From Leucobacter coleopterorum (GTDB lineage: Bacteria > Actinomycetota > Actinomycetes > Actinomycetales > Microbacteriaceae), in contig NZ_CP049933.1 in assembly GCF_011382985.1 (NCBI RefSeq), positions 2,542,001-2,606,000 on the forward strand: a stretch of 64,000 nt of DNA, given 5' to 3'. The notes under the pieces were generated by a model. The model saw only the letters and a program-made list of their open reading frames with translations. It did not search any database and was not told where the DNA came from. Position 1 is the stretch's first letter, and each line of letters begins with the position of its first letter. Made by a program: the position numbers and the translations under genes. Below are positions 14,243 to 31,551 of the stretch, one piece after another.

Positions 14243-17200
14243 CTAAGCAGCATCCGACTCAGCAGCTCTGCGCCTGCGCTGGAACAGCACGATTCCCGCG
14301 GCAACCAAAACACCGGCGAGAGTTGCGATTGCCAGGCCAGCGCCTGTCTGTGGAAGCCGTCCACCAATACCGGGGATTCCGCCGCTAGCGGTCACCTCCG
14401 TTGACGCACACGACTGATCCTCACCCGGCGCCAACTCGTCGGTATTGGCTGGATCCGTACCGGCTTGGGCAGCAGCTGCTTGACCCTCACCCCAGTCAGC
14501 AGGCGGCACAGAAACCACACAGTTCGTGATCTTCTCACCGGCCTCAGCGACCACCCGAGCAGTCACCGAATATTCAACCGATTCGCCCACCTTCAAGCTG
14601 TCGATCTGCCACACCAGCACACCGTCAGTAACCTCAGGATCACCAGCAGCTGATTCAAACTCAACGCCATCTGGCAGCTCGTCACGAGCAGAGAACCCCG
14701 CAACATCAAGGTCCCCGGTGTTCTCCACACGAATCTTCCAGGTCAATTCACCACCGGCAACCATCGTTGCGGGCCCGGTCTTCTCAACCTCAACGCGACT
14801 CGCAGGGGCGTCAACACACCCGGTATCGGTCAATCGAACGCCATCTACCAGCAGAGCGCCCACATTACGCAGACCACCACCAGCAGAGCAACCGGTCACG
14901 TCGGCCCCAAGGCCGCCAAGCACCAAAACCTCAGCAGTCACCACAAACCGATGAGTCTCACCGGCAGCAATGGGCGTATCCGTTACGATCGCCACCGCGT
15001 CAGCACCGTTCCAACCAGGATCAGTCACCAGGTCGCCAGGAGCAACGTTCTCCACACTCGCCTCGGTCATCTCGATGCCGTCTGCGAACGCAAAAGCATC
15101 CTCCAACGAGTACGTTTCATCGAATTGACCAGTGTTGGCCACCTCAAGCTGGTACACAATGGTGCCAACACCAGAGGAATCAATCTCAGAGCTCGTCACA
15201 TTCTTCTGAATCGTGACATCTGTCGCCGCCGCAACCAGCGCAGAGCTATCCTCGTCGCTGTCGCTCTGGCCAAACTCGTCCACGATCTCCGCGGTCGCAG
15301 TGTTCACCTGCTCACCCGGCTCAGGAATAACGGCCTGGAATGTCAGCGTCCCCGACTGCTGCGGAGCAATCTCACCAACGCTCCACACCGGCACAAGACC
15401 CGTCACATCTCCCGCACTCGCGACGGCGCTATCAGCAACATATTCAAGCCCGGCAGGGAGCTCATCTGTCACGGTCACGTCGCCGGAGTTTGGCCCAGTA
15501 TTCGTCACTCGGATCCTGAATACACCGGTTCCGCCGTGGCGCACGGTGTGCGTCTCGGCCCACACTGCGTCATCCGCCGGATCACACAGTTGAACGTCTG
15601 CGGCAGTACACGTCTGTTTCGAAACATTAACCAGCGGGCTCTGCACTCGAATAGCTGCGTCGGGTGTAGAGACGGCTCTGCTCAACACCTCGGGGTTCAC
15701 GCGCATCCGGAACCTGTTCGTGTAGGTGTCACCGCTCGTATCTCCGGTGGGAACAAGCGTGAGCTGCCACGTAAGAGTTTCGCCCGCGTCCAGCACGGTT
15801 GTTCCCGTGGCCGACGGCGACGCAAACCTGATCGCAGTCACCTGCGAGGCGTTCGGGCACCCGGCGGTGCCAAGTTGGCTCACCGTACACGCCCACGCGC
15901 CCGATCCAGGTTCCTCAAACCAGGCGTCACCCGGCGATCCAGGATCAGCGAAGCCGTCTTGAGCACCGTCCTGCGCGTCCAATACGTCGGGGCTAATCGT
16001 CGTCACGTATGCCTGGACCGTGCCGGGCAGATCCGCCACTGACATTCCCCTGAACCCACCCGAGAACGAAGAGGCGGGCTGCCTTGCGTCTCCGTTAAAC
16101 GGCAGCACGTCAATCGCATCCAATCGCTCCATCGCGCTCGATGTTGCGTTCTTTACGGTCAAATCCCACACCAGCGGGCCCGCAAGCGGGCGATACGGCG
16201 TCGCGGTCGATTTCGTCGCGTAGACCGTCGCGCCCGCAATCACCTGGGCTGTGGCCGAGGAGCTCCGCAGCGCGAGGGACGACGGATCGTCCGACGAGGT
16301 TGCGACCGCCGTGTTCATATACTGCATCCCGTTGGTCGCATCAAGCGGCACGCGTGCAGAGTATTCGAGCGGCTGCAACACCGTTCCAGGCAGCACTGAA
16401 CCGTACTTCCAACGCACGCCGTGCGCTGTACCAGATGGGACTGCGTTCCAGTCGGAGCCGTCACACGCGTCACAGAACTCGACCGCGGCACCGTCAGGGC
16501 TGGTAACGCTCAGCGGGTTGACCGTCATTCTCGGTGACGTTGCCGGAAGAATGTCGGTAAAGATGACGTCGCGCATTGGATCACCGGGCGTGCCACCACC
16601 GGCGGTTGTTACAGACGGCTCCAAGCGGAAGCGCGCGTCTGTGCCGGGGGCCACCTGGTTCCCCGATCCGGGGTTCTGCTCCAGGATCGATTTGTTCACG
16701 CGGACCTCACCGTTGACCAGGCGAATACGGTCACCCGCACTTCCGGCATGGGCAACGGGATTGTAAGTATTCGTGATCCAGCGCGGGGTTGATCCCGAAC
16801 GGAAACGCGCGAAGTTCGAAACGAGCGTGCCATCAGGATTGTTGGTCGAGTCGAGCGTGGACGGCCCGGTCACACGAAGGTACGTGTTGAGGTGCTGGCT
16901 CGAGTTGCCCGGTACCGGCACGAGGTAACGAATGCGCACCCGGTCGATACTGTCCCGGTAGCCGTCGGGCGAGATCTGGCCGCCGAGAGCTGCGGCGGTG
17001 GGATCGGTCGTCCACACGGCGTCACTGTCTTCACAGGTGGTCGACCGCATCTCGGCGTACGTGGTCGGATAGGTAGCTGGCGCCCCAAACTCAAGCACAA
17101 AATCGCCGGCTGTGAGGCCGTCCGTTCTTGTCGAAGCCGGGCCAATAGCAGGGGTTCTCGCAACCAGACGTTGCGAAGTGTGGTCGAATACGTCACAGAC

Positions 17201-18774
17201 AATCACGTTTTCCGCTTCAACAATCGACCTCGTGTACTGCACGTTTGAACGTACGACGAAGCCGGCCGTTGCCCGAATATCACCCTGCCAAATACCACTT
17301 GATTCGCCAGGAGCACCGCCGGTTTCGAAATCACGATAGTACTTCACCGCACTCTCGGCCCCTGCTGTTACTGTGCGGGTGTGGCTGTTGTTGGCCGTCG
17401 GTTCGGTTCCGTCACCGAAGTTGGAGTTGCCTGCAACGTCGTCGGGATCGAAATCCGTGTAGGTGTTTGTCAGCGCCTTTTGGCCGCCAGCGTCGACGAC
17501 GTCTTGCACCGGAAGCCAGACGTACGCTACACCAGTCGCAACGTAGAACGTGCCTGCGGGCAACGCGACCGTGCCGGCTCTCGTTGGGAATGACACTCCA
17601 CGCGTGTCTGTACCGGTGAGTGTCATCGTAAACTCTCCACCCGGCGATCCAGGAGCACAAGTGATCGTTCCGGTGTTCACCACCGCGTTGTCAGCCGTCG
17701 AGCCACTGATGCCAATTCGCGAAGCCGGAACGGCATTATTGATGCCAACGTTTGCGCATCCGGGGCTCCCGTTCCCGTCGAGACCTCGGGGGTGTTCCAG
17801 TTCATCAAGCGGGCGTTCGCAGAAACGCCGCTCACGTCATCGGTAAACGTGATCGGTGAAGCCAGCTGAGTCATGCCCTTCAGCGCCTGATCACCCGTAC
17901 GGGTCGGGTGGATGACTGCGATACCAAAGGTAAACTGGTTCACGAGACCGGGCTCCCCGTTGGGACCGGTTGTAGCGAAGAAGCCGGTCGAGTTCTTCCG
18001 CAGATCGTAGAAGGCACCGGCCGATACCGTTGTAGACACCTCGTTCGAAGCAACCAGCGGACTTCCATCAGCGTCACCGAGCGCAAACAAAACAGTCTTA
18101 ACCTGACCATTGATCGACTCGGTGGTCACCTTTGCTACAGGGCTGATCGACTCGGTACCCGGTTCAGTGGCCGTCGGCTTCTGGCAGATGAGCACCCGGC
18201 GATCCCCACCCGGTGCGCCCGTGGTCGAGTCATACAGTCCGGTCGGGTTTGGGGTCGCACCAGTCCCGTTACACTGCGGAGGAGCGGCCAGCCACTCCAT
18301 TCCCGCGGGAAGAGTCGAGATGGCGTACGGCTCGGTCGTGGGTCCGTCGTAGTCAAACTCCAAACGATACTGAACAGTGTCGTTTGTTCGCACGATCCCG
18401 TTGTTTGCACCCGAGTCGTTGCCCGGATCGTCGTTCGCGTCAAAAACAGCGGTGCCATCCGACACAACCGTCAGTTGGGGTTGCGTTATAGAGAGCAACG
18501 AAATGGACCCCTGAGCTGGCTTCAGCGTATCAGTTCCTTCGGCTTCAGCAGGCTGCTCACCTGAAGAAGCCTTCGGCGCATCTGATGTGTCGACTTCACC
18601 GGCCTTTTCGGCCTCGCCAGCTTTTCCGGATTCGTCAGACTCCACGGCTTCGGCGGGCCGTGCAGAGACGGCCGAGGCCGCATCGGCGGCACCGAGAGTG
18701 CCTACCAAACAGCCAACAATAACTAGAGCCAGCGCCGCTCGCGTACGCGAGATAGCGGCTTTCAGAACGCTCAT
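14243..18774 (-). CDS. Giant surface protein B: shared ectodomain, DUF11 repeats, LPQTG anchor (one frameshift)
   Basis: About 1,510 residues after one repair at 17774-17776. MSVLKAAISRTR starts a Sec signal (cleavage near AASA), followed by an acidic Ala/Glu spacer to about residue 88. The N-terminal module has NNGIVRTNDTVQYRLEF and LPAGMEWL at about residues 125-162, then YTDFDPDDVAGNSNFGDG, VCDVFDHTSQRLV and RVRIRYL. A middle module has IDVLPFNGDAR. The distal part holds at least three DUF11-like Ig modules (RVTNTGPNSGDVTVTDELP, EVANTGQ, RVENTGDLDVAGFSARDELP). The C-terminus is LPQTG-helix-RRRR. Such proteins are sortase-linked stalks; ligand unknown. It lies 68 bp before A and 148 bp after C, probably in one transcription unit with both. 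Confidence 0.88.
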
Positions 18775-18830
18775 TTCATTTCCCCTATATTTAACCCCAC
18801 ACCCAGCTAGCACAGAACACTTCGCGGGTT

Positions 18831-18865
18831 GTAGCCGGGAACGAGCGTGTGCTCGCCCCGGCTAC
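18831..18865 (-). terminator. Hairpin between surface genes C and B
   Basis: GTAGCCGGG (18831-18839) pairs with CCCGGCTAC (18857-18865), and inside it CGAGC pairs with GCTCG around a four-base loop. It sits after the repaired stop of C and before B. On the minus strand it is not followed by a T run, so it could attenuate or stabilise the transcript rather than end it. Confidence 0.55.
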
Positions 18866-18922
18866 CTTTTCTTGCAGTGAGAGTCTCCCTGGGTTCTCAG
18901 TTAAGAAAACCCCTCCCTAATC

Positions 18923-21900
18923 TCAAACGATAGATTTGCGTCTACGTAGAATCAAGCCTCCCCGAGCAATAACGCGAGTGCGATTAACGCCGCACCGCCG
19001 AACTGCGAGCCCGTCACCGGCAGACCTGGGATAGCTTCACCCTGATTCGGCTTCACGGGGGAGAGATCATCGGGGCAGATCTCCTTCGAGCAGGTGAAGG
19101 TGTTGACCACGGTGAAATTGAGCTTCTGCAGGTCATTTGGAGTGCCCTGCGTCACCGCAACTCCCTTTTCGAAGCTGCTCGCCGAGATCTCGACCTTGCT
19201 CGCACCACCGTTATCGACCTCTTCGCCGAAGCACTTCGCGCCGAGCGGAAGGTAACGCGGATCCCCCGAATCGTTGACGAGCATCTTGGTTTGCCCGCCC
19301 TTGAGCTTGACGGAGCCGGAGTAGACATCAACTCGTTTTTCTTTGCCCGCGGCATCCATTTCCGAGATCTGGCAGGTCACCAAGATCTCGAACACGGCCT
19401 CGCTCATGTGGTCGACGGCCGCCTTGTCACCATCGAGCTTCTTTGTAACGGCAAGGGTGCCTGCCGAGTAGAAGTTGGTCAGTGACGCGGTCACCACACC
19501 GGCCTGCTGGGTGGCGGGATCCCACGGAATAGTGACGTCGACCGGTGCCGCCGCTTCGTCAGCGTGTCCGGCAGCGCTCTCTGTCACCTTGCAACTCGCG
19601 AAGGCAGGTAACGGTCCGAGCACATCTGAGGTGATCGCCTCGGATCCGTTCACCTCAAGCGTTACCTGCTGCTCCAGCACATTCTCGCCTTCAAAGGTGC
19701 ACGCGACGTCAAAGACGAGCTTGTCACCCACGGCAAACTCTGCCGCACCAGCTCCCTCAAGGGTCTTATTGATCTGTAGGCCGCCCGAGGGCAGTAGACC
19801 AGCATCGATCGTTGGATCCGAGCTACTCACACCGAGCACCACCGGATTCGAGGCACCGGTTGCGGTGTCCGCGTCAGAGTCGATCTCCACGTTGGAGTCC
19901 GTACCGAGCAGCCCAACGGGTGCGGTGTCTTCAACACGAGGAGTGGTGAACTCCGCCCCCACCGGCTTTTCGAAGGTGACCACGTAACCCTTGGCGTCGG
20001 AGGCACGGAGGTTCTCAAACACGTAGTTGCCAGAGTCATCGGTCTCTGCCGAGGCCTCGACGGAGTTGCCGAGGTCGTCGGTGCCTGAGATGCGCACCGG
20101 AACGCTCTTCGCGTCGGGTTCTGCCGCACCGTCGAACTCATCCTGTAGACCGTTGCGGTTGAGATCCCACCACACGCGGTTGCCCACGGATGAGGCGACC
20201 ACTGTTTCTGGGCGGTTGAGGGGGCCAATTGTATTATCGAGGCCTCCAGCAGCCGCCATGACGCGGTTCACATACACGTTCTCAGCTGCGTTGCCAACAC
20301 CGACCATCGAGATTTCAACTTCAATAACCTCACCGGACTCATAGGCCCCCGGACGTTGCACGCGCACACCAGTTACTTCGTTTGCTGCAGCGGGGCAGTG
20401 ACCCATGCCTAGCACTCGGGTTCCACCCACAGGAGCATCGCACCAGGTGGTAGATCCATCAGCAGCGTTTGAAACGTGCTGCGGGTTGGCAGAGAAGGTC
20501 TCAGCACTCGTGTACAAGAGAGCCACTCGATCGCCCCTAGTAACAACTGCAGAGACAAAGTCGAGCGTTCCAGCAAAGTTAGAGCCCAGGGCTCCGTTCT
20601 TGGGGAGCACATCAATCATGTCTGGAGCAGTGACCGCACTCGCTTCGGCAGCGGGCAGTGTATTGCTGAGGCGCACGGCCCAACGATTCAGCTCGTTTTG
20701 CGCCTGACCCGCACGATTCACCTGCGTGACTGGGGTTAGTGCAATCTTTTCAAGCTTCACACCGGCAATGTTGCTGAGCTGTACCTGAGCACTATCACTA
20801 CGCTGCTCCACCGTCGAGGAGTCGCCCTCAGCCCAGACCACAACCGTGTTCTGGTACACGCCGTCACCCGCCGTCGGTGAAACCTCGGCCGACAGCACTA
20901 TTGGGTCGATGGTTGTGTTGACCTCGTGCTTTGGAAAGACCCACCTAATGTAGGTTTCGTCCGCGCCACAGGCCGCACGCTTGGCGTCACCCGGGGTTGA
21001 CCCGAGGGTAACAGTGGTCGGGGTCGGGTCGCCTCAGAGTAAGTCTGTGACGCAGGAAGGCAGTCCTCAACCCACACGTCTTTGAGTACACCGGTGGCCG
21101 CCGAGCCTGAGGTGAGCGACGGGGAAAGCTCGTACTGCACCAGATCGCCACCGGTCACCTGAGGTGGCATCGAGGAGAACTCACCGGTGTCGCCCTTCCG
21201 CACCTTCTTAGCGATGCGGGCTTGAGCGTCAGCAAGGATGAGTCGGTCGCCGGGCTTACCGACGTTTCCATCGGGATCGGCCACGTTCGCTCCTGGAACG
21301 TAGTCAGAAAGTCCCCACTTGCTCGGAGCGTCGAGCACATCCTGCATATTGAGGCGGTCCAAAGGCACCCGCTTCAGGGAACCCCAGTTGGGCAAGATGT
21401 CACCGGCACCCCTGCCGCCGTCAGCAACCCGCATTCCAATAGAGATGTAGGCGCGCACCTGGTTGAAGTTCGCAACTTCAAGCCCCTGCGTATCGGGGAG
21501 CACGATGTGGGCACGCACTCGCGCTACGCCCGTGTAAATTCCCTTGGCAGCTAGTGCTGGATCGTTGCCGGGAACCTTTTCTGGTGCGTCGTACCAGGGC
21601 CCTTGATCCTCACCACACGCTGAGTTTGCGCCTGCCGATCCGAGAAGCGCCGAGTACTGCACCTTAAGCTCGGGCGTCTCGCTCTTTTGCTTGGCCCACT
21701 TGGCCTTGTCAGCTGTGTCAGGCACATTGTTGTATCCAGACACCCAGACGGGTGCCCCGTCTGAGCCAACAAACTGCGCTCTGGCATCGGAAGACGCGGG
21801 AATGTTGCCGGCACGCAGATGCAGGCGAGTGTTATCCCAGGCGTCACACGCAACCACGCTCACCTCAGCGGGGGTCGCAATGTCCGCCCCTCCTACGGTG

Positions 21901-23658
21901 AGTACACTCACCACGTCCTGTTTGGGCGCGACGGTGATGCCGCCGCTACCGAGTGGTGCGCCACCCGGAGGGCCCTCAAAGTAGTTGTTTCCCGGCGTGA
22001 ATTCTTCCGCGGTCATGTTTCCGGTGGTGCCCGGAACTCCCGCAAAGTCCTTTGCGAAGCTACCCGCGAGTGTTACCGAGGGCGTTGTGGTGCGGTAGTC
22101 ATTCCAGTGGATGCCAGGGTAATTCGCGGATTCTGGGCCGGGCTGGTCGGCGCTCGTCTCGTGATCGGAAGCAGTGAAGCCCGAGATGCTGAGGTCTGAG
22201 AACACGTTGCGAGTGGGCAGCGTCCAGTGATCCCCGGAGGCGTTCACCTTGCCGAAGTCACGAATCGTGTCCACCGGGGTCGACACCTGAACACTGCTGG
22301 AAACCGCATAGGCGGTATTCGCTGGCAATGCCTTACCGTCGGAATACGTTTTGGTGGGGTAACTACGCAGTGAGGTGTCAGCATTGCGAATGCTAATTTT
22401 CGCGGGCTCGCCCGGTCCCTTCTGATCAATTTTCACGCTGCCCGAGTTGCGTACGGAGTTGGCGGCGTTCTTGCTCTTGCCGTCAATCACATTGGCGGGG
22501 CCTCCTGAGAGCACCCCGCTATAGCTAATGATGCGAGCGCCGTACTTGTCAAGATCAGCATTGATAGCAGCGATCTTGTCTACGCTCATGCTCGGGTAGA
22601 GTGCCTCCGGCGAGACATCGTCGGTGAGCGTGATGTCACCGATCGCGGGCATCGCCCCCTTACCGTTGGCCGGAGCCGAAAGATAGAGGGAGTAGATGTT
22701 CACGGAACAGGCACGCGTTTTGTCCCAGTAGCAGGGCTGGACGTACGGACCCCAGACATACCCGGCGTTCTCGCCGGTTCCGATGCTGTTCTTCGACAGA
22801 TCCCACATTAGGCGAGCCGAAGCCTTAACCGTGGGAAGCGCACCGGTAGCAGCAACGGGCTTGTCGAGGCCATCGGCCGTGATCGACGCGGACTTAACCG
22901 CTAGGGTCTGCCCCTGGTGCACGAGGTTGAGCACCTTCACCGTAAAGAATACGTAGTCAGTCGCTGCTGATTTGTTGCCCACGTTGCAGGTGAGCGTTTG
23001 CTCAGCGAGCTCGTCAACAGACTTGGCCGTTAGCGGCACCTTGGGGTTCCCGCAGCAGCGGGCAGGAGGGATGATCCAGTTGCCTTGCAGTATCCGGGCA
23101 TCTCGAGGATCTCCATCCCCTTTGGCAGCGCCACAGACCAGGTGAGGTTTTCGGCATCGCTCTTTGAGACCGAGTACTCAACCTTGTACACCACGGTGTC
23201 ATTGACCCGCACAATGTCGTTGGTCGAGCTGGCGTCGTTTCCGGCCGAGTTGTCGCCGGGGGTGAAGGGATCGGTGCCGCTGCGGTACCTGGAGAGCTTC
23301 ATCGAGATCGAAGGGAGCTCGTCATCGGGGTCGGCCGTTGCCGGAGCCTGTGCGGGTGTCGCAGCCGTGGAGGGAGCAAAGAGATCCCGAGCGGGAGAGG
23401 CCAGCGGCTCCTCAGCAGGGGCCGTCTCGGCGGCACCTTCACCCCCCTGGGGCAGTTCCGTAGTTTGGGGATCGACACCTTTAGGCGCGCCTGCCTCGGG
23501 AGCGTTCGTCTCGGGAGCCTCACCAACGACTGGTGGATCTGCGGTCTCTTCCGCCCAAGCAACACCGCTCGGCATGAGCGTAAGCCCGAGCAGCAGAGCC
23601 AGCATTCCGGCTGTCCCCCGTTTCCCCCAGATCTTCGGATCCTCTTTCGCACGGTCAA
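18923..23658 (-). CDS. Giant surface protein C: shared ectodomain, SdrD-B and DUF5979 modules, LPVTG anchor (frameshifted)
   Basis: About 1,579 residues after repairs at 23615-23619, 23043-23046, about 21030-21035 and 18960-18963. The best start is TTG at 23656-23658 (GGGGAG 7 bases upstream), giving LTVRKRIRRSGGNGGTAG and then the signal core MLALLLGLTLMPSGVAWA. ATG at 23679 is an alternative. The N-terminal module has STNDIVRVNDTVVYKVEY and LPKGMEIL, then CDAWDNTRLHL, VARVRAHI and MIDVLPKNGALG. An SdrD-B-like domain (NRVWWDLNRNGLQDEFDG) and two DUF5979-like domains (each beginning LQINKTLEG or LAVTKKLDGD) follow. The final repair restores LPVTG-helix-RRRKSIV and moves the stop to 18923; without it the sorting signal loses its basic tail. 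Confidence 0.85.
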
Positions 23659-23901
23659 GCGCACACTCCCCACAGTCATTGGCAACATCGTTGAATAGTT
23701 GAGCTTCGTCACTTTTGAGCGCCTGCCAGCAGGCGGGTGCGCAGAAACCCAACAGAGCAAGAGACCTTCCTCGACCGGCCACGTTACGGAGCCGCCCGAT
23801 CTCTCAGCCAAATCCCAGCTTCGGGATAAGTCCTATAATTTCGCGCTGAAGATCCACCACGAGCACGGTGGCCAGTCCAGGCCTACACCACGCATTTCGC
23901 G

Positions 23902-25011
23902 CTAGTGAATGAGCACCCAGTTGGGCGAGGCGTCATCGCCACCTGGCCGTTCGGGCGCGGGGTCAGATTCGCGAGAGGTTTCCACTGACTCACCGCGGGG
24001 CGCAGTCTCAACCCCGGGCTCCCCGCGATCCACTGCGGCAGACTCCTCGGCGTCAGCACTTGTCGAGTGAGGTTCTTCCGTATCCAACTCAGCTACCTTG
24101 TTCACTGGTGTCGTTGGAGCAGAAGATTCAGCCTGCTGCCCGGGCTGCACAAACAGGAACACCCCGGCCACCCCGGCGGCCAGTGCGAAAAGTACGCCGA
24201 TGGCACGCAGATTTGCCTTGCCCTTGACCAAGAGAGCAATGTTGCGAACAACGCCCTCAGATGCAGCCGCGGCGCCACTTCCGGGCGTGAGAGCAACGGC
24301 CACCCCGGCACCACCACCGACGAGCAGCGGTCCAAACACGATGCGCAGACTCTGATTGAGCACCTTCAGTTTCGCCACCTGGACCGCGCAAACTTTGCAG
24401 TACTGCAGGTGTTCCGAAGCAACTTTTCTCTTGCGGGCAGGGAGGCTGCCACGCACATACCCCGCGAGAAAGGCCGCAACACCCCTGCATCCCGGAGCTG
24501 ATTGCTCAATGTACTGCTGCAGGTATGCAACGCGCAGCCCCTCCCTGGCCCGAAACGCGAGGGCTGCCACAGCATTCCCAGAAAGCTCAAGCAGCTCACC
24601 CGCTTGGTCGTGGCTAAGCCCCTCAACCTCAGTCAGCCACAGCACACGTTGCCACGACTCGGAGAGCGATCCCAGCGCACGAGCGAGCAGATCGTTCTCC
24701 ATGTGCTGCACCGAGACATCTTCTATGGCGACGGCCGGCAGCTTTTCAAGTTCGTCATCTGCAAGAGCGCTCGTGTTGCGCTCCGTCTTGGTTGCGCGTC
24801 CTAGTTCACCGCGAAGGGCTGTAAATAGGTAGGCAATGAACGAGGTGCGTGGGCCAAGGCCCTTTTGCAGCGCGGCAAAAATCTTTGCGAATACCTCCGC
24901 AACGATGTCTTCAGCATGATGGCTCGACCTCACAAGGTGCAGGGCACGCGCGAACGCGACGCCTCGGTACCGTGAGTAGAGTTCAGCAAACGCCGCCTGC
25001 CGCTCTTTCAC
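23902..25011 (-). CDS. ECF sigma factor fused to zinc-finger, membrane helix and acidic outside tail
   Basis: Extracytoplasmic-function sigma factor. Sigma-2 covers about residues 5-72 (FAELYSRYRG, HAEDIVAEVFAKIF) and sigma-4 about 105-165 (LGSLSESWQRVLWLTEVEGLS, then the helix-turn-helix). A zinc-binding anti-sigma-type motif, H-x3-C-x2-C (HLQYCKVC, residues 201-208), follows, then a helix at about 271-288 and a Pro/Glu/Ser-rich acidic tail of about 80 residues, presumably outside. The listed start is GTG. The frame continues upstream with TDWDDVRL, typical of this sigma group, so the true N-terminus is probably about 20 residues longer with a non-AUG start or an indel near 25060. It lies between C and its sister sigma gene. 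Confidence 0.85.
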   Translation of the reverse strand: MKERQAAFAELYSRYRGVAFARALHLVRSSHHAEDIVAEVFAKIFAALQKGLGPRTSFIAYLFTALRGELGRATKTERNTSALADDELEKLPAVAIEDVSVQHMENDLLARALGSLSESWQRVLWLTEVEGLSHDQAGELLELSGNAVAALAFRAREGLRVAYLQQYIEQSAPGCRGVAAFLAGYVRGSLPARKRKVASEHLQYCKVCAVQVAKLKVLNQSLRIVFGPLLVGGGAGVAVALTPGSGAAAASEGVVRNIALLVKGKANLRAIGVLFALAAGVAGVFLFVQPGQQAESSAPTTPVNKVAELDTEEPHSTSADAEESAAVDRGEPGVETAPRGESVETSRESDPAPERPGGDDASPNWVLIH

Positions 25012-25168
25012 TCCATTGGAGTCGTCAGCAACAAAACAGCACAGTCGAACGTCATCCCAGTCAGTGAAACTGCGAATTTTGATTCACTCCCCCAATTTTG
25101 ACAAAGCCAAACTCGAGGTTTAGCCGAAGCCAGATCCGTGCCCGAGTGCCCCCAACCCAGACGAGGGA

Positions 25169-25174
25169 ATTATA
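25169..25174 (-). promoter_or_regulatory. Extended -10 promoter upstream of the first fused sigma gene
   Basis: On the minus strand the sequence CTGATATAAT is a perfect extended -10 (TGnTATAAT) in an otherwise GC-rich 286-bp gap. No good -35 is found 16-18 bases upstream, which is acceptable for extended -10 promoters. Transcription would begin near 25162, giving a leader of about 100-150 bases before the sigma gene. The rest of the gap (25012-25297) shows no other gene. Confidence 0.55.
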
Positions 25175-25297
25175 TCAGATGAAACAGGCAGACCGACATC
25201 GCGCTCTCCCACCACAGAGCCCGAACCCCCAAACCAAGATTCGCCTTTCATACGGTCGCCCAGATCTCACAGTCCCATTCAGCTACGCTCCAATGCG

Positions 25298-26545
25298 CTA
25301 GTCAGCGTAGAACCGAAACGTCTCCGTCTCTTCTCCAAAGGTGACCGTGACGACGTACTCACCACTTCGCGGCGCCGAAATGATGCCCCGTTTACCAACG
25401 ATGCCGATGTCCCCGAGCTTCTCCTCATCGTGAAACACCGCAACATCGCAGCTCTGCTCGCCCGCCCCAGCGTTCAGCACCTCTAGGTGCCTGTTACCTT
25501 CCTCGGGCACGTAAACGACTCGGCAACCACCGAGGGCGGCCACCTCTTTCCACTCGGTGGCCTGTGGCGCTTGCGTTGCTGTGGGCTGCGGTGTCGCCCG
25601 GGTCGGCTCGCCCCTCACGCCACCGGCAAGCAATAACCCAATAAGAACTAACACCCCTGCCGCACCCATAAGGATGACACCGGGAGTGGCGGTTGCTGAG
25701 GCAACCGTCGCTGACGCTGCGGTTGTTCGGCTGCCCAATCCGAGAGCGATACTCACCGGCAGCAGCAACACCACAACCCGGAATCTCTCGACCATCTTCT
25801 GCCGCGCAATAAGGGCGGCCTGACAGTGCTCGCAGTGTTCAACGTGTACGCCGATCCGCCTATCTCGTGCGCTTCTCGAGCGCCCCGTCATGAGCTGTGT
25901 ATCTTCGGCGGTTCCCGGCTTTGACTTGTCCAGACGCTGGTTCCAGCCGATGATCTGCTCGGCGCTGTAGAGGTGCCCGGCAGGGATGTTTTCTGCGGTG
26001 ACGCACTCGAGGTATTTCTGAGTGAGGGCCTGCTTCGCGCGGTAGTAACGCACGTCGACCGTGCTCGTATTCACACCCAAGACACGCGCAATATCTTTGC
26101 CCCTCAGCTCTTCGATGCTCCTAAGCCAGAACACGAGCTGCTGCTGCTCGGTCAAGCCGTTAAAAGCCTCAAGAAGCACAGTGTCAGGCTCGGTCAGTGG
26201 TTCCGGTTCTTCCGGCAGGTAGAGCTCAACATCTTCAACACTGACCTCCTTATTTAACTCCCGTGCGCGCGAGGTAGCGACGTTGCGGATGGTGGTGATG
26301 AGATACGGCCCCACCGCGACCCGGGGACCGCCACCCTTTTGCATCGCTTCGAGCACGCGGGCGAAGCTCTCCGAGACAATGTCGTCAACTGCATCTTGCC
26401 GGTGAGCGAATCGGATCGCCCAGCCACGCGCGTACGGTTCGTGCAAGCGGTAGAGCTCCGCGAACGCGCTCTGATCCCCCGCAAGATGCGCGGCGGTCAG
26501 TCTTCGATCCTGCGTTTTGAAGTCCTCTTCGGCGCCTTCCGCCAT
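25298..26545 (-). CDS. ECF sigma factor fused to zinc-finger, membrane helix and beta-rich outside domain
   Basis: 415 residues from the ATG at 26543-26545, which has a strong AGGGGGG site; the frame extends upstream but that part is not protein-like. Sigma-2 lies at about 25-95 (FAELYRLHEPYARGWA, AVDDIVSESFARVLEAM) and sigma-4 at about 125-180 (LTEQQQLVFWLRSIEELRGKD). H234-x3-C238-x2-C241 forms an anti-sigma-type zinc site. Helices at about 257-270 and 291-309 lead to a Thr/Pro linker and a 90-residue outside domain with two cysteines and a predominantly beta pattern (EYVVTVTFGEETETF). It shares MQKGGGP with its sister's LQKGLGP, so the two are tandem paralogues with different sensors. Directly downstream of surface gene D. 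Confidence 0.88.
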   Translation of the reverse strand: MAEGAEEDFKTQDRRLTAAHLAGDQSAFAELYRLHEPYARGWAIRFAHRQDAVDDIVSESFARVLEAMQKGGGPRVAVGPYLITTIRNVATSRARELNKEVSVEDVELYLPEEPEPLTEPDTVLLEAFNGLTEQQQLVFWLRSIEELRGKDIARVLGVNTSTVDVRYYRAKQALTQKYLECVTAENIPAGHLYSAEQIIGWNQRLDKSKPGTAEDTQLMTGRSRSARDRRIGVHVEHCEHCQAALIARQKMVERFRVVVLLLPVSIALGLGSRTTAASATVASATATPGVILMGAAGVLVLIGLLLAGGVRGEPTRATPQPTATQAPQATEWKEVAALGGCRVVYVPEEGNRHLEVLNAGAGEQSCDVAVFHDEEKLGDIGIVGKRGIISAPRSGEYVVTVTFGEETETFRFYAD

Positions 26546-26690
26546 GTTCCCCCCTGTCTGAGCGCACTGCTCAGATACTGCATCCCTTCTTTGGGTTTGG
26601 TCTCTGTCTCGCAAGGTGTATACAGCCGCGTGTGTGGGCGGAGATGTTCCCCACCCACACACGCGACTCGTCGCTCGGGTTCTAGCTAGC

Positions 26691-29600
26691 TTAGACCTCG
26701 CGCCTGCGGCGACGTTTCTGCAACAGAACTCCCCCGAACAGCAGCACCCCAGCGATTGCCGCGATGAGTGCCACCGCGATTGGCGTTCCAAGACCAGAGC
26801 CACCCGTGGTTGCAAGGTTTGCGCTCGATCCATCTGTGGTACCGGGTTCGGGATCACCAGCTCCCAGCACGGTCACCTCGTAGTTCAGGTCGACACACTG
26901 TCCAAGGTCATCACACACTCGCACGGTGAAGCGGTCGGTGCCGGTGAAGCCGTTTTTCGGCGTGTAGCTGACCATCGCACCGGATACCGAGACGGTGCCG
27001 TGCTCGGGCAACGCGACGATTGAGTCCATGGTAACGGGCTGCAGGTTGGTGCCGACCGTGTTGCCAATTGGATCAAACACTGCCGCCTGGTCGTCGTGAC
27101 GCAGCGTCGTCTTCTCGCCTTGTCCGGTTGGTGCTGGTTGCACCGTCACCACATACCTTCCGGTCGCGGTCTGTCCCACACCATCCGTATAGGTCACGAC
27201 CGTGGTGTACACACCCTTCGGCGCATACACCCCACCGCCCTCATGCGACGTGTACACCACAGACCCGAGTTTGACGCTGCCACGTTCCGGCTTCTCAATA
27301 ATCACGGCCTTTGTGTTGCCATCACCACCCGACACCTTCTCAGTGAAAGTGTGCGTCGCAGTCTTGGGCAACGTCCCCACCAGAGCCTCCTGGTCTACCG
27401 CAGTGAGGGCCGGGTAGACGGTCACAGTGAACGTCACACGGGTCTCTTGACCGTACGCATCAACCACCACACCCGTGAAGGTGTACTCACCCGGAGCAAG
27501 CCCCGCGGTATCCCAGGAAATCACACCATCTTTCAATACCGGCTCCCCGGCAGCACCTTCCGGCACGTTCGTGAACGTGAGTTCCGGATCCTCACCCGTG
27601 ATCTTGACACCCGCGAACTCCGCCACGGTCGTACCCTGCTGGGATCCGACCCGATCACTGTCCTGATCAACGGTGAAACCAGGGCCGACTGGCGCTTCCA
27701 CGATGATCGTGACAGTCGCAGTCTCAGTGACCCCCAGCACGTTCGTCCAGGTGTACTCGAACGTGTCCACGTAGCTGTTGCCGGTCTCACCTGCAGGCCA
27801 TGCCGCGGGAGCAGTGTACGTGACGGTACTCTGCACCCCGGGATCACCGGAGCAGTCACCGCGATACTGCCGCCCTTCGCGGTCGTGGCTGCGGGGAGTG
27901 CGACCGTGTTCGAGGCGGCACCCATCCCGATACTGCCAGGAGCAGTCGGGATGTCAAGAGTATCGTTCGCGGTCACATCCACCATGACACTCTTCCCCAC
28001 ACCAACCGTGATGAGCGGAGCAAACATGCCGGGATCATCCACAAGTACCGGATCCGCGATCACTTCCTGATACAACACATTCTGATCCGTGAGCACATCA
28101 CCGGCAGCAACCGTCACCGAGGTAGCAGGCAGGAGCCTGCTCCAGTCAGCAGACGCGGAAGCCTTCAAACGCACTTCATACTCACCGGCAGGCACCAACA
28201 CCCGGTAATTCCCCGCAGCGTCTACATCCGTGGTCGCTACCACCGTGTCATACGCGGGACTATAGATCTCTACCGTGTCATCCCCGGCAGGCCAGGAGCC
28301 GTCACCAGCGCTGAACCCGCCATCAAAATCAAGGTCACGCGTGACGGTCCCCGACAGTTCCGCAGCGGAAGACACCAGTTCCACGCTCGATACCGCACGG
28401 AACACCTGCACCGTCGTCGGATCACTATTGACCGGCTCAGTCCGACCATTCATGTCGTTCACGAGCTTGCCACCACGAGCAAGGTTCCCAAGCTGCACCG
28501 ACACCGATGCCGTGCCGCCATAGCCGGGCTGCATCTCGTTCGACGTCGTAAACCGCAAAGCCGTAGTCCCAGCAGGAGGGTATCCCCAGACAAGGACTTC
28601 CACGTCACACCTGACGCGCCATCCTCGTTCCCGGCCTGGGCAACCGCAGCCTCAACCGTTGCGGCAGCATCAGTCGTGTACTCGACACCGACAGACCCCA
28701 TCGCGGGCGTCGTCATCTGAGACTCCACCTTCGACACCCGAAGCGGCGCACCCAAACCAGTCGTGCCACGACTATCACCATTAAACGGCAACACGTCCAC
28801 AAACCGGCCCACACCAATCACCTGCGGCGTACCATTGGCCCAGTTCAACGTGTACTGAAACTCCTCACCCGGAGCGACTTTTCCGGGCTGGGCCGTCGTA
28901 GCGACTTTGCCACCGGTGAAGGAGGCAACCGACGCAACCGTCAAGGTCGGGGTCTCGGAGCGGTCAGTCCCTGAGCTCGCGCCGCCCTGCGAAGCCTGTG
29001 TGAAGTCACCCGGCGAGGAGATCACACTGGTTGCGGTTCGAGTCGATCCATTGGGCGTCAAAACCGATTGCTCAACCTGGAAACTGAAAGAAGACAGCAG
29101 TGTCTCATGGCCTACGACGGCCGCGCTGAAGCTTCCCCCGGGTGTTCCTCCGGGAGCGTTGATATCTCCAAGGCGGAATGTGATGGAAGCAGGTGCGCCG
29201 TCGTCAGCGTTACAGGGTATGCCATCCGCGCCAAAATCAGGAGCGGTGTAGTCATACGGAATACCCGTAGCATCCAACGACGCCCTCACGGGAATCGCAC
29301 ACGTCGAATCAAGATCCACCTGGATTCGTACGTCCTTCGCAACCGCGTCGATTCCAGCCATCGGCGCACCGATCACTAGTGGACTCACCGTAAGGGTGGC
29401 AAGTTCTCCACCCTGCACCGATGCCGAGGACCACACCGCACGGTGTCGCACGAGGGCTGAGATAACATCGATGCCACCGCCGCGCCCGGTGCCGGCCGCA
29501 GCCGGGGAATCGGGCATGTTCGACTTGACGGCCGGCGTCTCAGCAGAGCCAAATTGCCAGAACCACGGAATCATTTGCTTGTCCGCTATCCCAAGCGATG

Positions 29601-31248
29601 CCGATGTGGTCGTTCGCTTCATGGGGAGGCTGAGTCCGTAAGCGCGACTCGGAGCGAGTGACGGAAGGTATTTCACGCGCACCGCATCCACCTTGCCGGA
29701 ACCGCCCGCCGCGTCAACGGTGCTGTGCCACTGGGCGGAACCATCTCCAGCAACACCACAGTCATACGCCCTCCGGGCAGAATTGTCTGCCAGGTTGAGC
29801 GATGCGTACTCAACAACATAGTCATTTGCCGGGAGAGCCGTTCCCGTGAGGTAGTCAGAGGCGGCGTACGCGGCGCTACCTGATTGCCCCCTCGGCTCGC
29901 CAATGAGATTTACCAGCTGAGCGTCGAACGCCACGCACCCAAATACGTTGGTTGCGGCATCTGTCGCAGTCGTATCGTTGAGAACTCCCATTCCCGTACG
30001 AAACTCCTGCCCCGGCGTCACAGGGTACTGCGAACCTCGGAAGCTCTGGTTCACTGAGCCGATCATTCGTTGGCCATTGAGATTGGTCACGTGTGTCTGC
30101 CCCGCCAGGAGTTTTACACTCTGTGTTCGGTCGACAGTGAATGTGAAGCCGTTCCGTGAAGGGTTTGTCGTGATCAGCGCATCACCCGGCGCTTGCCCCT
30201 GCGCATACCCTGCGCCAAAGTTCGATGCTCCGCTGACACCATTCGGGTCAAACCCCGAGAACTGGCCCTGCAGTGTCGTGATCTCGCCGGATGGCAACTC
30301 AGACCCATACGGCACAAAGATGGGAATGCCCAACCGACGCGCACTTGTGAAGTTAGCTGGCATGGTCGAAGAAGTGGAGTTTGGCGGAACAAAGCTCGTA
30401 ATGCCGGTGACCGTAAAGGTTGCTACCCCTCCGGTCTGTGTCACGGTGACACCGCTCGGCAGCAAGTTATTGGGAATGACTGCTCCAGCGGGGAGCGCAA
30501 GAGAAAACTCAAACGGCTCCGCAAGAGCTTCAAGGCCACGCATGTCTCCGCCCGGTCGAGTCGCACCAAAATCTACATACTGGGTCCAGAGGATTCCGTC
30601 CTGACCCCCGACGGTATCGCGGGAGAATGCGTTTCGGTAGGTACTGAACTCCATCGCAACAGTGGCAGCAACAGTCACCGCACTGGAAGCCGTAGCAGAG
30701 ACACCATTCGCGGAAATTGTTGGCTGCAACTTTTCGCCGTTCCCGTTCTCAAACGTCCATGCCCGGAACTCAACCTGCTGGCTCCCCGTCGTATTGGCCG
30801 TCACCTTGCAGGAGAGCGTGCGGCTTGCGTTGGTGATCGTGCCGCCCGCATCACACACCGATGACGCCGAAGCTCCAGCGTCCCACCTCATCCCCACAGG
30901 CAAGGTCGACGTATAGGTCACCACCCCTGGGGCAGCAACCTGCGCGGTCGCGCGATACTGAATCCAGTCGTTTGCCGCGACAACATCGTTCCTGTTCCAG
31001 GAACGCCCCTCAACCGTGGCATCATTATCAAACTCATTAGATGAACTGCCGTCCTGCACCACATCAAACGCGAGACTACTCAACGTCGCGTCGGCAGCAA
31101 ACGCAGGAGAAGCCCCCACACCCAGCACACCGGCCACCAGAGCGGCCGCGACACTCATCACACCAGCCCTCCGCCAGCCACGAAGTCCGTTCTCCGAACC
31201 CTTTAATTTCAAGTTTTTCAACGCTAACGCATTCCTTCCAAAGGCCAT
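26691..31248 (-). CDS. Giant surface protein D: shared ectodomain, SdrD-B-like and Ig/CshA-like modules, LATTG anchor (frameshifted)
   Basis: About 1,519 residues after repairs at 28584-28587 and 27836-27839. The signal peptide is GWRRAGVMSVAAALVAGVLG ending ASPAFA. The start ATG at 31248 is listed, but TTG at 31221 follows GGAAGG and may be used. Shared-architecture motifs are NDVVAANDWIQYRA with LPVGMRW, FSGFDPNGVSGASNFGAG, VFGCVAFD, AVRVKYL and VDVLPFNGDSR. A carboxypeptidase-like/SdrD-B module follows (LDFDGGFSAGDGSW, AGNYRVLVPAGEYEV), then several Ig-like repeats, the last with VSYTPKNGFTGTDRFTVRVC as in CshA or cadherin-like repeats. The end is LATTG-helix-KRRRRREV. First gene of the surface cluster. 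Confidence 0.87.
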
Positions 31249-31551
31249 TAAGCCCGCCCCAACTCATGGCTCACCAAAACATAGAAATGCAGCCAATCTG
31301 CATTCCGGACAGCGTATAGACGCGAGACCCGTGATTTCCTTACAGGCTTAGAGCAAATTTTTTACACAAAAATTTGCAGGCATCGACTCTGCGCGGTAGC
31401 AATCGCAAAGGCGCTGCGTTTCGATGGCGAAAGATCCCCTGTTGCGCGCTCTACGCGCAACTCTTTCCCACCACAATTCTACCTCGTTAGGAGCAAACCG
31501 GGTCATCATCCCAGTAACTACTCAGGGGAACGAAATCCGCTCGAAACGCCG
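31249..31551. other. Intergenic region with AT-rich palindrome and hairpin
   Basis: No gene is seen in this 303-bp gap between tetR and surface gene D, both on the minus strand. It holds a 10-bp AT-rich inverted repeat (GCAAATTTTT at 31353-31362, complement at 31368-31377, 5-base spacer), about 105-130 bp upstream of D, and a GC-rich hairpin (GTTGCGCG at 31441-31448, complement at 31454-31461) about 90 bp after the tetR stop, a candidate tetR terminator. The palindrome is a candidate operator or promoter element for D. Confidence 0.5.

Follow-up and report, generated by a model that had tools for sequence, protein, structure and literature searches.

Two genes of Leucobacter coleopterorum, placed head to tail on the minus strand and enclosed by genes for surface adhesins, raise the question of whether they work as a pair or serve separate ends. 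They lie within a 64,000-nucleotide stretch of contig NZ_CP049933.1 (assembly GCF_011382985.1, positions 2,542,001 to 2,606,000), here called the window, whose own numbering is used throughout, and each encodes in a single chain an extracytoplasmic function (ECF) sigma factor followed by a zinc motif of anti-sigma type, a membrane segment and a C-terminal extension. In the order of transcription the run reads adhesin (31248-26691), S2, S1, adhesin (23782-18952) and a third adhesin (18774-14243). We propose that S1 and S2 are probably signal devices complete in themselves, which span the membrane and each serve a single surface-protein gene; the picture best supported by domains, linkage, type matching and promoter-like sites, all of them read from sequence, would be one sigma factor, one sensor and one adhesin. 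The tandem itself is a seam, at which an adhesin-sigma module abuts a sigma-adhesin module.

The two fused sigma factors

A sequence-only reading of the locus had described two tandem sigma factors, each with an anti-sigma-like anchor, and both open reading frames are present with this layout (Table 1). Its assignment of sigma regions 2 and 4 to either protein is borne out by PF04542 and PF08281, which score above cut-off in S1 and S2 alike, the only two genes in the 64-kb window with a Pfam match to region 2, and the NCBIfam model TIGR02937 gives 61.6 and 70.1 bits, respectively, against a cut-off of 42.9. The predicted H-x3-C-x2-C motif was found in both proteins; the zf-HC2 model stays below its cut-off in S1 (17.5 bits, cut-off 22.2), and the Pfam model has no match in S2. 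S1 does end in the acidic tail that had been noticed, rich in proline, glutamate, serine and threonine, and S2 in the cysteine-containing beta domain, of about 90 residues with two cysteines, and the idea that one chain acts as sensor, tether and sigma factor at once is supported by this architecture.

The S1 stalk is of low complexity, yet its last residues are conserved in distant relatives. Its tail ends in GDDASPNWVLIH and that of the closest relative (L040/L077, 48% identity) in GDDTTPNWALVE, and similar ends are seen at L105, L106, L107, L099, L076, L113, L083, L041, L047, L050, L051 and L048. The pattern DDxTPNWxL, drawn up after the tails had been inspected, occurs in 11 of the 60 fused sigma factors described below and in none of 676 control proteins.

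In S2, where a short proline- and threonine-rich linker is visible by eye, cysteines 341 and 366 are invariant in all 10 aligned ectodomains of S2 type, and a disulfide between them is probable. Modelled alone from the single sequence, the ectodomain forms an eight-strand sandwich (predicted local distance difference test, pLDDT, of 86.5 in the best of five models), and fold searches with this model return immunoglobulin (Ig)- and FN3-like sandwiches (best Foldseek E 3.3e-3, none at 0.001; top VIA Z 9.1, to a designed protein). A profile search against PDB sequences gave nothing convincing (best E 0.054). We predict a general Ig-like fold only and claim no family. A whole-length AlphaFold model of S2 with S1 as its sole partner (mean pLDDT 52, C-terminal half unmodelled) was not used.

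A family with several sensor types

We assembled 78 stretches (the window, 17 others from the same genome, G000, and 60 from other genomes), in which 74 sigma-like genes were called. Fourteen of these, without an HxxxCxxC motif plus membrane segment, were set aside, leaving 60 with the fused layout, a number in which orthologous loci are counted separately and which is a lower bound, because the gene caller missed fused genes known from the genome search (e.g., the S1 relative in L077). Since the layout recurs in these 60 genes, that of S1 and S2 is not a chance assembly of motifs. Pfam (E ≤ 0.01) finds region 2 in 57 of them, region 4 (PF08281) in 56 and zf-HC2 in 42, and, as outside domains, Big_13 in 6, Big_6 in 5 and DUF11 and CARDB in one each.

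All 36 genomes of the same genus that were searched match both S1 and S2 at E ≤ 0.001, a threshold that also admits ordinary ECF sigma factors. With the sample widened across the order, 61 of 198 genomes, belonging to 25 of 73 genera, match S1 at E ≤ 1e-25. Fused copies number 18 called genes in one genome (G034) and 5 in G000, where other copies look broken. One of the latter, an S2-like copy (G000:C1:594310-595523), is broken and stands next to genes that we take, from their appearance, to be insertion sequence transposases. S2-like sigma remains are seen in the same genome at L004:8215-9233, near genes of such appearance, and at L205:3118-3264, before a 747-residue gene with an LVVTG end. 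In other families of the order, S1-like sigma parts start proteins of about 980-1620 residues (L101, L103, L189-L195). A scan of genome contigs yielded one distant locus, and a plasmid search five distant records.

Sensor types were assigned from the C-terminal part of each sigma factor alone, with the cores of the C2 and D11 (DUF11-like) types picked by eye and then searched with hidden Markov models; L075 was labelled NW by hand and L114 left uncertain. A tree built on 69 sigma parts places the NW group (12 rows, including S1) and the C2 group (11 rows, including S2) each on one well-supported branch, and each branch encloses one untyped row. As S1 and S2 belong to separate clades, their tandem is not the product of a recent duplication.

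Linkage of each sigma factor to its own adhesin type

Of the 60 fused sigma factors, 42 have a sortase motif (searched in six frames) within 6 kb, as do 3 of 40 control places, which are fixed coordinates in relatives (Fisher 1.5e-10), related loci not being independent in these counts. With called genes and a looser motif rule the numbers become 48/60 and 8/40, and in the single genome G034 a sortase motif is near 14 of 18 fused sigmas as against 2 of 10 control places.

The types of sigma factor and adhesin also go together. On the S1 side, the adhesin pieces share 61-62% identity with the adhesin that neighbours the closest relative of S1 (L077) and are otherwise nearest to the adhesins of NW loci, and the S2-side adhesin is nearest to those of C2-type sigmas (best 41-43%, L089). 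With the cognate adhesin defined as the nearest within 1.5 kb, sorting-motif genes first, and with the two window pairs and the L077 pair assigned by hand, an adhesin's best match in another genome has the same sigma type at 23 of 28 typed loci, a proportion as high as in none of 2000 shuffles (mean 0.175); within G034 the best match is of the same type in 10 of 12 cases. The failures are three D11 loci, L069 and L075 across genomes, and L069 and L077 within G034. From these sequence relationships, S1 seems to be coupled to the adhesin gene after it and S2 to the one before it.

The proposal of a paired circuit enclosed by adhesins thus divides: the link to adhesins stands, and the pair as one circuit is not supported, the clades being separate. 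In relatives, likewise, the sigma-adhesin arrangement is conserved and the sigma-sigma arrangement is not, and we found one other tandem in the genus stretches examined (L065, in G034) and one in another family (L196). The former (L065:659-14967) is an adhesin-sigma-sigma-adhesin run on one strand with C2-type and D11 sensors.

As to the adhesins themselves, a sorting motif with hydrophobic stretch and positively charged tail is complete in the frames 26691-27836 (LATTG) and 14243-17683 (LPQTG), and in the S1-side adhesin the LPVTG motif is present and the tail interrupted by a frame change. Four sortase genes are found in G000.

Promoter-like elements

Between many NW sigmas and their adhesins we found the element TGTAAC-N-GTCTTTA. 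In its strict form (GTAAC-N15-19-[GC]TCTTT) it lies 29-88 bases after the sigma stop at 8 of 17 NW loci scanned (L106, L105, L099, L107, L110, L083, L047 and L051, with L048 as a further one) and does not occur in 1.59 Mb of control strand. Trained on seven strict sites, a matrix places L050 above all 633 controls and the S1-side window site at a score exceeded or equalled by 2 of the 633, with the two closest S1 relatives only at 1.7% of controls. The S1-side site overlaps the 5' end of the longest adhesin open reading frame (23782); the gene caller starts this adhesin at 23605.

A three-block matrix that includes the upstream A-tract was tested with each lineage left out, its blocks having been aligned by eye and the pairs L081/L087 and L082/L109 and the group L105-L107 each keeping a relative in training. 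With it, 18 of 40 regions outscore every one of the 643 control upstream regions (maximum 16.1); the 40 include repeats, with the window S1 site and L113 each entered twice, and close orthologues (L099, L105, L107). The S2-side window site, which was outside the training set, reaches 20.8 and also exceeds all 643 controls. At held-out loci, a score of at least 17 precedes 10 of 45 genes in the sortase category near fused sigmas (nine loci) and none of 676 control genes (14 sortase, 166 signal-peptide and 496 other; Fisher 3e-13). When whole stretches are scanned, the surroundings of fused sigmas (2.33 Mb of strand) give 49 matches and the controls (1.59 Mb) 10, 9 of the latter without a start within 1.5 kb. 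Upstream of the fused sigmas themselves the score is reached in 1 of 44 held-out cases, and we do not claim autoregulation; as the fused sigmas are rarely preceded by a site, the sigma factor seems to be made beforehand.

Between the stop of the S2-side adhesin and S2 lies a strong hairpin of 21 pairs, 18 of them Watson-Crick. Hairpins with at least 11 Watson-Crick pairs occur between adhesin and sigma at 7 of 10 C2 loci, against 45 of 646 controls, and upstream of the sigma at none of 11 NW loci. In the whole window (1-64000), no Rfam family reached its gathering score, and no gene for a tRNA or tmRNA was found.

Sigma-pilin fusions in relatives

In two fused sigmas of relatives (L082 and L109), the C-terminus matches the last 200 positions of the SpaH/EbpB major pilin model, including the sorting-signal region, at 3e-19 (69 bits) and 6.5e-15 (55 bits), below the curated cut-off of 95 bits. 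In L082 the fused gene is followed by one for a large protein with LPLTG, one for a complete pilin of SpaH type (1.7e-96) and one for a class C sortase (6e-69); L109 has a class C sortase at 2e-65. Judged by gene sizes and ends, the gene order of L082 recurs in five more genomes (L200-L204), making seven in all, the class C sortase being supported by a model match in L082 and L109 and represented by a sortase-sized gene in L200-L204. Each of the seven sigma-pilins carries an LxxTG-type signal and a basic tail. These sequence features suggest that the outside part of a fused sigma factor can be a piece of the fibre whose genes follow it.

Membrane topology

Where a single transmembrane helix had been expected after the zinc motif, a membrane segment is indeed present, and hydropathy finds two hydrophobic segments, in S1 and S2 as in most family members. 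The second is the stronger (mean 2.30, against 1.76 for the first), and across the 60 members lysines and arginines are more numerous before it than after it in 37, equal in 17 and fewer in 6. A C-terminus outside the cell is favoured because of this charge pattern, the extracellular-type domains, the invariant cysteines of the S2 type and the sorting signals in homologues. S1 and S2 thus probably have one spanning helix, as far as sequence features tell, with the C-terminal extension outside, and the first hydrophobic segment may be part of the anti-sigma region or associated with the membrane. Many members show by eye an Ala/Pro-rich, 'AP.SA'-like stretch between the first segment and a lysine- and arginine-rich loop; reading it as a signal-peptidase site was dropped, as the charge pattern places the stretch inside.

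Table 1. Coordinates of the features discussed, in the window unless a stretch is named.
Feature	Position	Strand	Details
S2, fused ECF sigma factor, C2 type	25298..26545	minus	415 aa
S2 sigma region 2	26255..26455	minus	Pfam, residues 31-97
S2 sigma region 4	26024..26176	minus	Pfam, residues 124-174
S2 zinc/anti-sigma motif	25823..25846	minus	HVEHCEHC, residues 234-241
S2 probable membrane-spanning segment	25625..25681	minus	residues 289-307; hydropathy
S2 ectodomain, predicted Ig-like beta sandwich	25301..25573	minus	model pLDDT 86.5; cysteines 341, 366
S1, fused ECF sigma factor, NW type	23902..25011	minus	369 aa from GTG; coding probably to ~25080
S1 sigma region 2	24793..24981	minus	PF04542, residues 11-73
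S1 sigma region 4	24541..24690	minus	PF08281, residues 108-157
S1 zinc/anti-sigma motif	24388..24411	minus	HLQYCKVC, residues 201-208
S1 probable membrane-spanning segment	24148..24204	minus	residues 270-288; K/R 4 before, 0 after
S1 conserved C-terminal peptide	23911..23937	minus	DDASPNWVL, end of low-complexity stalk
S2-side cognate adhesin	26691..31248	minus	Big_9 Ig domain, LATTG end; frames 28459-31248, 27533-28603, 26691-27836
S1-side cognate adhesin	18952..23782	minus	SdrD_B, DUF5979, LPVTG end; frames 23030-23782, 20898-23039, 18952-20898
Third adhesin	14243..18774	minus	DUF11, Gram_pos_anchor, LPQTG; frames 17677-18774, 14243-17683
Promoter-like element, S2-side adhesin	31315..31364	minus	TAAAAAATTT ... 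TGTAAGG-N15-CGTCTATA
ECF-type promoter-like site, S1-side adhesin	23758..23788	minus	CGTAACG-N15-GGTCTCTTG
Strong hairpin	26624..26668	minus	z -4.76 for 26546-26700
TATAAT hexamer upstream of S1	25169..25174	minus	by eye; promoter scan did not call it
Sigma-pilin fusion	L082:8619-10352		
Sigma-pilin fusion	L109:8744-10507		
Sigma-pilin fusion	L200:7069-8832		
Sigma-pilin fusion	L201:4065-5807		
Sigma-pilin fusion	L202:7336-9069		
Sigma-pilin fusion	L203:7559-9268		
Sigma-pilin fusion	L204:7601-9319		

Proposed mechanism and alternative explanations

In the mechanism that we envisage, the N-terminal part with sigma regions 2 and 4 would, by homology, direct RNA polymerase, and the zinc-motif region would act as a fused anti-sigma domain of class-I type that keeps it silent. 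One membrane helix would carry the sensor outside, which in S1 would be a disordered acidic stalk ending in the DDxTPNWxL peptide and in S2 the Ig-like domain with its probable disulfide. On a cue, the sigma part would be freed, most likely by a cleavage outside the cell and then by an M50 intramembrane protease, for which G000 has one gene (G000:C1:2490836-2492113), as do 14 of 14 control genomes. The freed sigma would then transcribe its cognate adhesin gene from the ECF-type promoter, S1 the one downstream and S2 the one upstream.

It is also possible, if on the whole doubtful, that the outside part of each fused sigma reads its own surface fibre, so that the cell checks or counts the assembly of the adhesin and adjusts its transcription. 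Sigma factor, anti-sigma domain, tether and a piece that binds the adhesin or is built into it would then be one molecule. The outer end of the sigma-pilins would be a sortase substrate, covalently joined to the pilus or wall, and the DDxTPNWxL peptide of S1 and the Ig-like domain of S2 would be its non-covalent counterparts.

Several observations weigh against one sigma, one sensor and one adhesin, and some of them lend support to other explanations. None of three D11-type adhesins matches its own type across genomes, 12 of the 40 scored regions fall outside the top 5% of controls, and the S1-side window site ranks at 1.1% of the 643 controls. Near fused sigmas, 3 of 80 signal-peptide genes and 5 of 235 genes of other kinds are likewise preceded by a site that reaches 17, and a match of 24.4, above both window sites, lies inside the S1 coding sequence (24840); it is probably due to chance, and single matches can thus be chance. 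In G000, the NW motif occurs at 6 sites and the reversed pattern at 23, with no enrichment that would indicate a wider regulon. Damage to the locus adds to this list. All three adhesin genes of the window (14243-31248) are divided into frames with short overlaps, and the best family matches to S1 start at read-through residues 4-12, upstream of the GTG (residue 24), so that the 369-residue frame is probably short and the 5' end of S1 looks disrupted in this assembly. Together with the broken S2-like copy, this could mean that both modules are decaying and inactive in this strain, which we consider unlikely, given that frames of 369 (S1) and 415 (S2) codons remain open and that intact relatives exist. 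The adhesin splits may be either real decay or base-level assembly errors, the latter being suggested by a completeness of 89.6% in a single 3.2-Mb contig.

It is quite unlikely that the association with adhesins reflects hitchhiking in shared, fast-evolving islands, with the promoter serving surface genes generally through another sigma factor. Surface genes are common in the genus, as the 8 of 40 control places with a looser-rule gene within 6 kb illustrate, 18 of the 60 fused sigmas are without a strict sorting motif at that distance, and the promoter contrast becomes borderline when restricted to unlinked genes of the sortase category (10 of 43 scorable genes near fused sigmas against 0 of 14, Fisher 0.044, 7 of the 21 unlinked genes having too short an upstream sequence to score). 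On the other hand, the promoter score is reached by none of the control genes, whatever their kind, the strict site stands close behind the sigma stop at almost half of the NW loci scanned, types co-segregate within one genome, and among unfused sigma-like genes a sortase motif lies within 6 kb of 3 of 14, all short or broken pieces (L018_6, L096_8, L096_9). Very unlikely, in our view, is a single surface-sensing switch in which S1 and S2 are paralogues providing two inputs to one adhesin cluster. The two genes are adjacent, co-directional and enclosed by adhesins, and the run in G034 is comparable, but the clades are separate with members at unlinked loci, the nearest S1 relative adjoins its own adhesin and leaves no room for an S2 directly before it, and both sigma-linked adhesins of the window match the type that goes with the clade of their own sigma. 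Most improbable is a topology with two membrane crossings, one by each hydrophobic segment, which would leave the C-terminal part in the cytoplasm and the protein without an outside sensor. Most members do have two such segments, and S2 is among the 6 that oppose the charge rule (no lysine or arginine before, 2 after), but against this stand the 37 members that follow the rule, the lower hydrophobicity of the first segment, the extracellular-type domains and the pilin-like end with sorting signal in seven homologues. The dedicated device, with one sensor and one adhesin gene to each sigma, remains our preferred reading.

Relation to known systems and significance

The fused layout of ECF and anti-sigma domains is known from groups ECF48, ECF52 and ECF53, for which proteolytic release is expected in the portions of the review consulted (PMC8999054). 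Among the closest in architecture, as described there and in the consulted part of a second paper, is SCO4117 of Streptomyces coelicolor (ECF52), a single polypeptide made up of an ECF sigma domain, a zinc finger, a transmembrane part, a stalk rich in proline and an outer module, for which proteolytic release has been proposed (PMC5826349, PMC8999054). It occurs in one copy, carries a carbohydrate-binding module and has its putative motif at 29 genes (PMC5826349), in contrast to the several sensor types, the many copies in some genomes and the local adhesin partner found here. As no carbohydrate-binding module was found in S1 or S2 (Pfam, E ≤ 1) or in the 60 members (E ≤ 0.01), we do not file S1 and S2 under ECF52. 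ECF48 and ECF53 resemble them as actinobacterial ECF sigmas whose chain goes on with a probable zinc anti-sigma domain, membrane helices (one or two) and an extension, of up to 400 residues there and up to about 950 after the membrane segment here, and the consulted text of the review mentions no link of these groups to sortase-anchored proteins, unlike what we observe (PMC8999054). IutY of Pseudomonas putida (ECF243), which that text names as the only fused ECF sigma with experimentally shown proteolytic activation, belongs to Gram-negative siderophore signalling, unlike S1 and S2 (PMC8999054).

In working principle, the fused sigma-adhesin modules are by analogy nearest to the SigI/RsgI systems of Clostridium thermocellum, as far as the consulted portions of the literature describe them. 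There the anti-sigma is a protein of its own, and sigma-I does not belong to the ECF factors. Shared features are multiplied sets of sigma factor and sensor, with differing sensors and surface machinery as target, and release there is by RseP; the targets are cellulosome genes in that case and adhesins in ours (PMC12203970, PMC10575876, PMC6056542, PMC4711584). In a literature search limited to open-licence PMC articles, we found neither one sensor per adhesin nor sigma-pilin fusions; one article that it returned, PMC13082335, deals with a different subject. Within that search, what appears to be new is that different sensors are coupled, module by module, to single sortase-type adhesins, with a shared promoter-like architecture and multiplication within a genome, and that sigma factors are fused to pilins. 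These fusions would, to our knowledge, be the most direct coupling known between a surface fibre and transcription.

Fused ECF sigma factors are known by architecture, and few, according to the consulted part of the review, have a known signal or target (PMC8999054). In the modules described here, the sensor and sigma factor stand next to a promoter-like site and one partner gene, and all of these recur and vary together, so that what fused sigmas sense and what they switch on becomes experimentally answerable. If our reading is true, these modules would be a Gram-positive parallel of SigI/RsgI for adhesins and pili.

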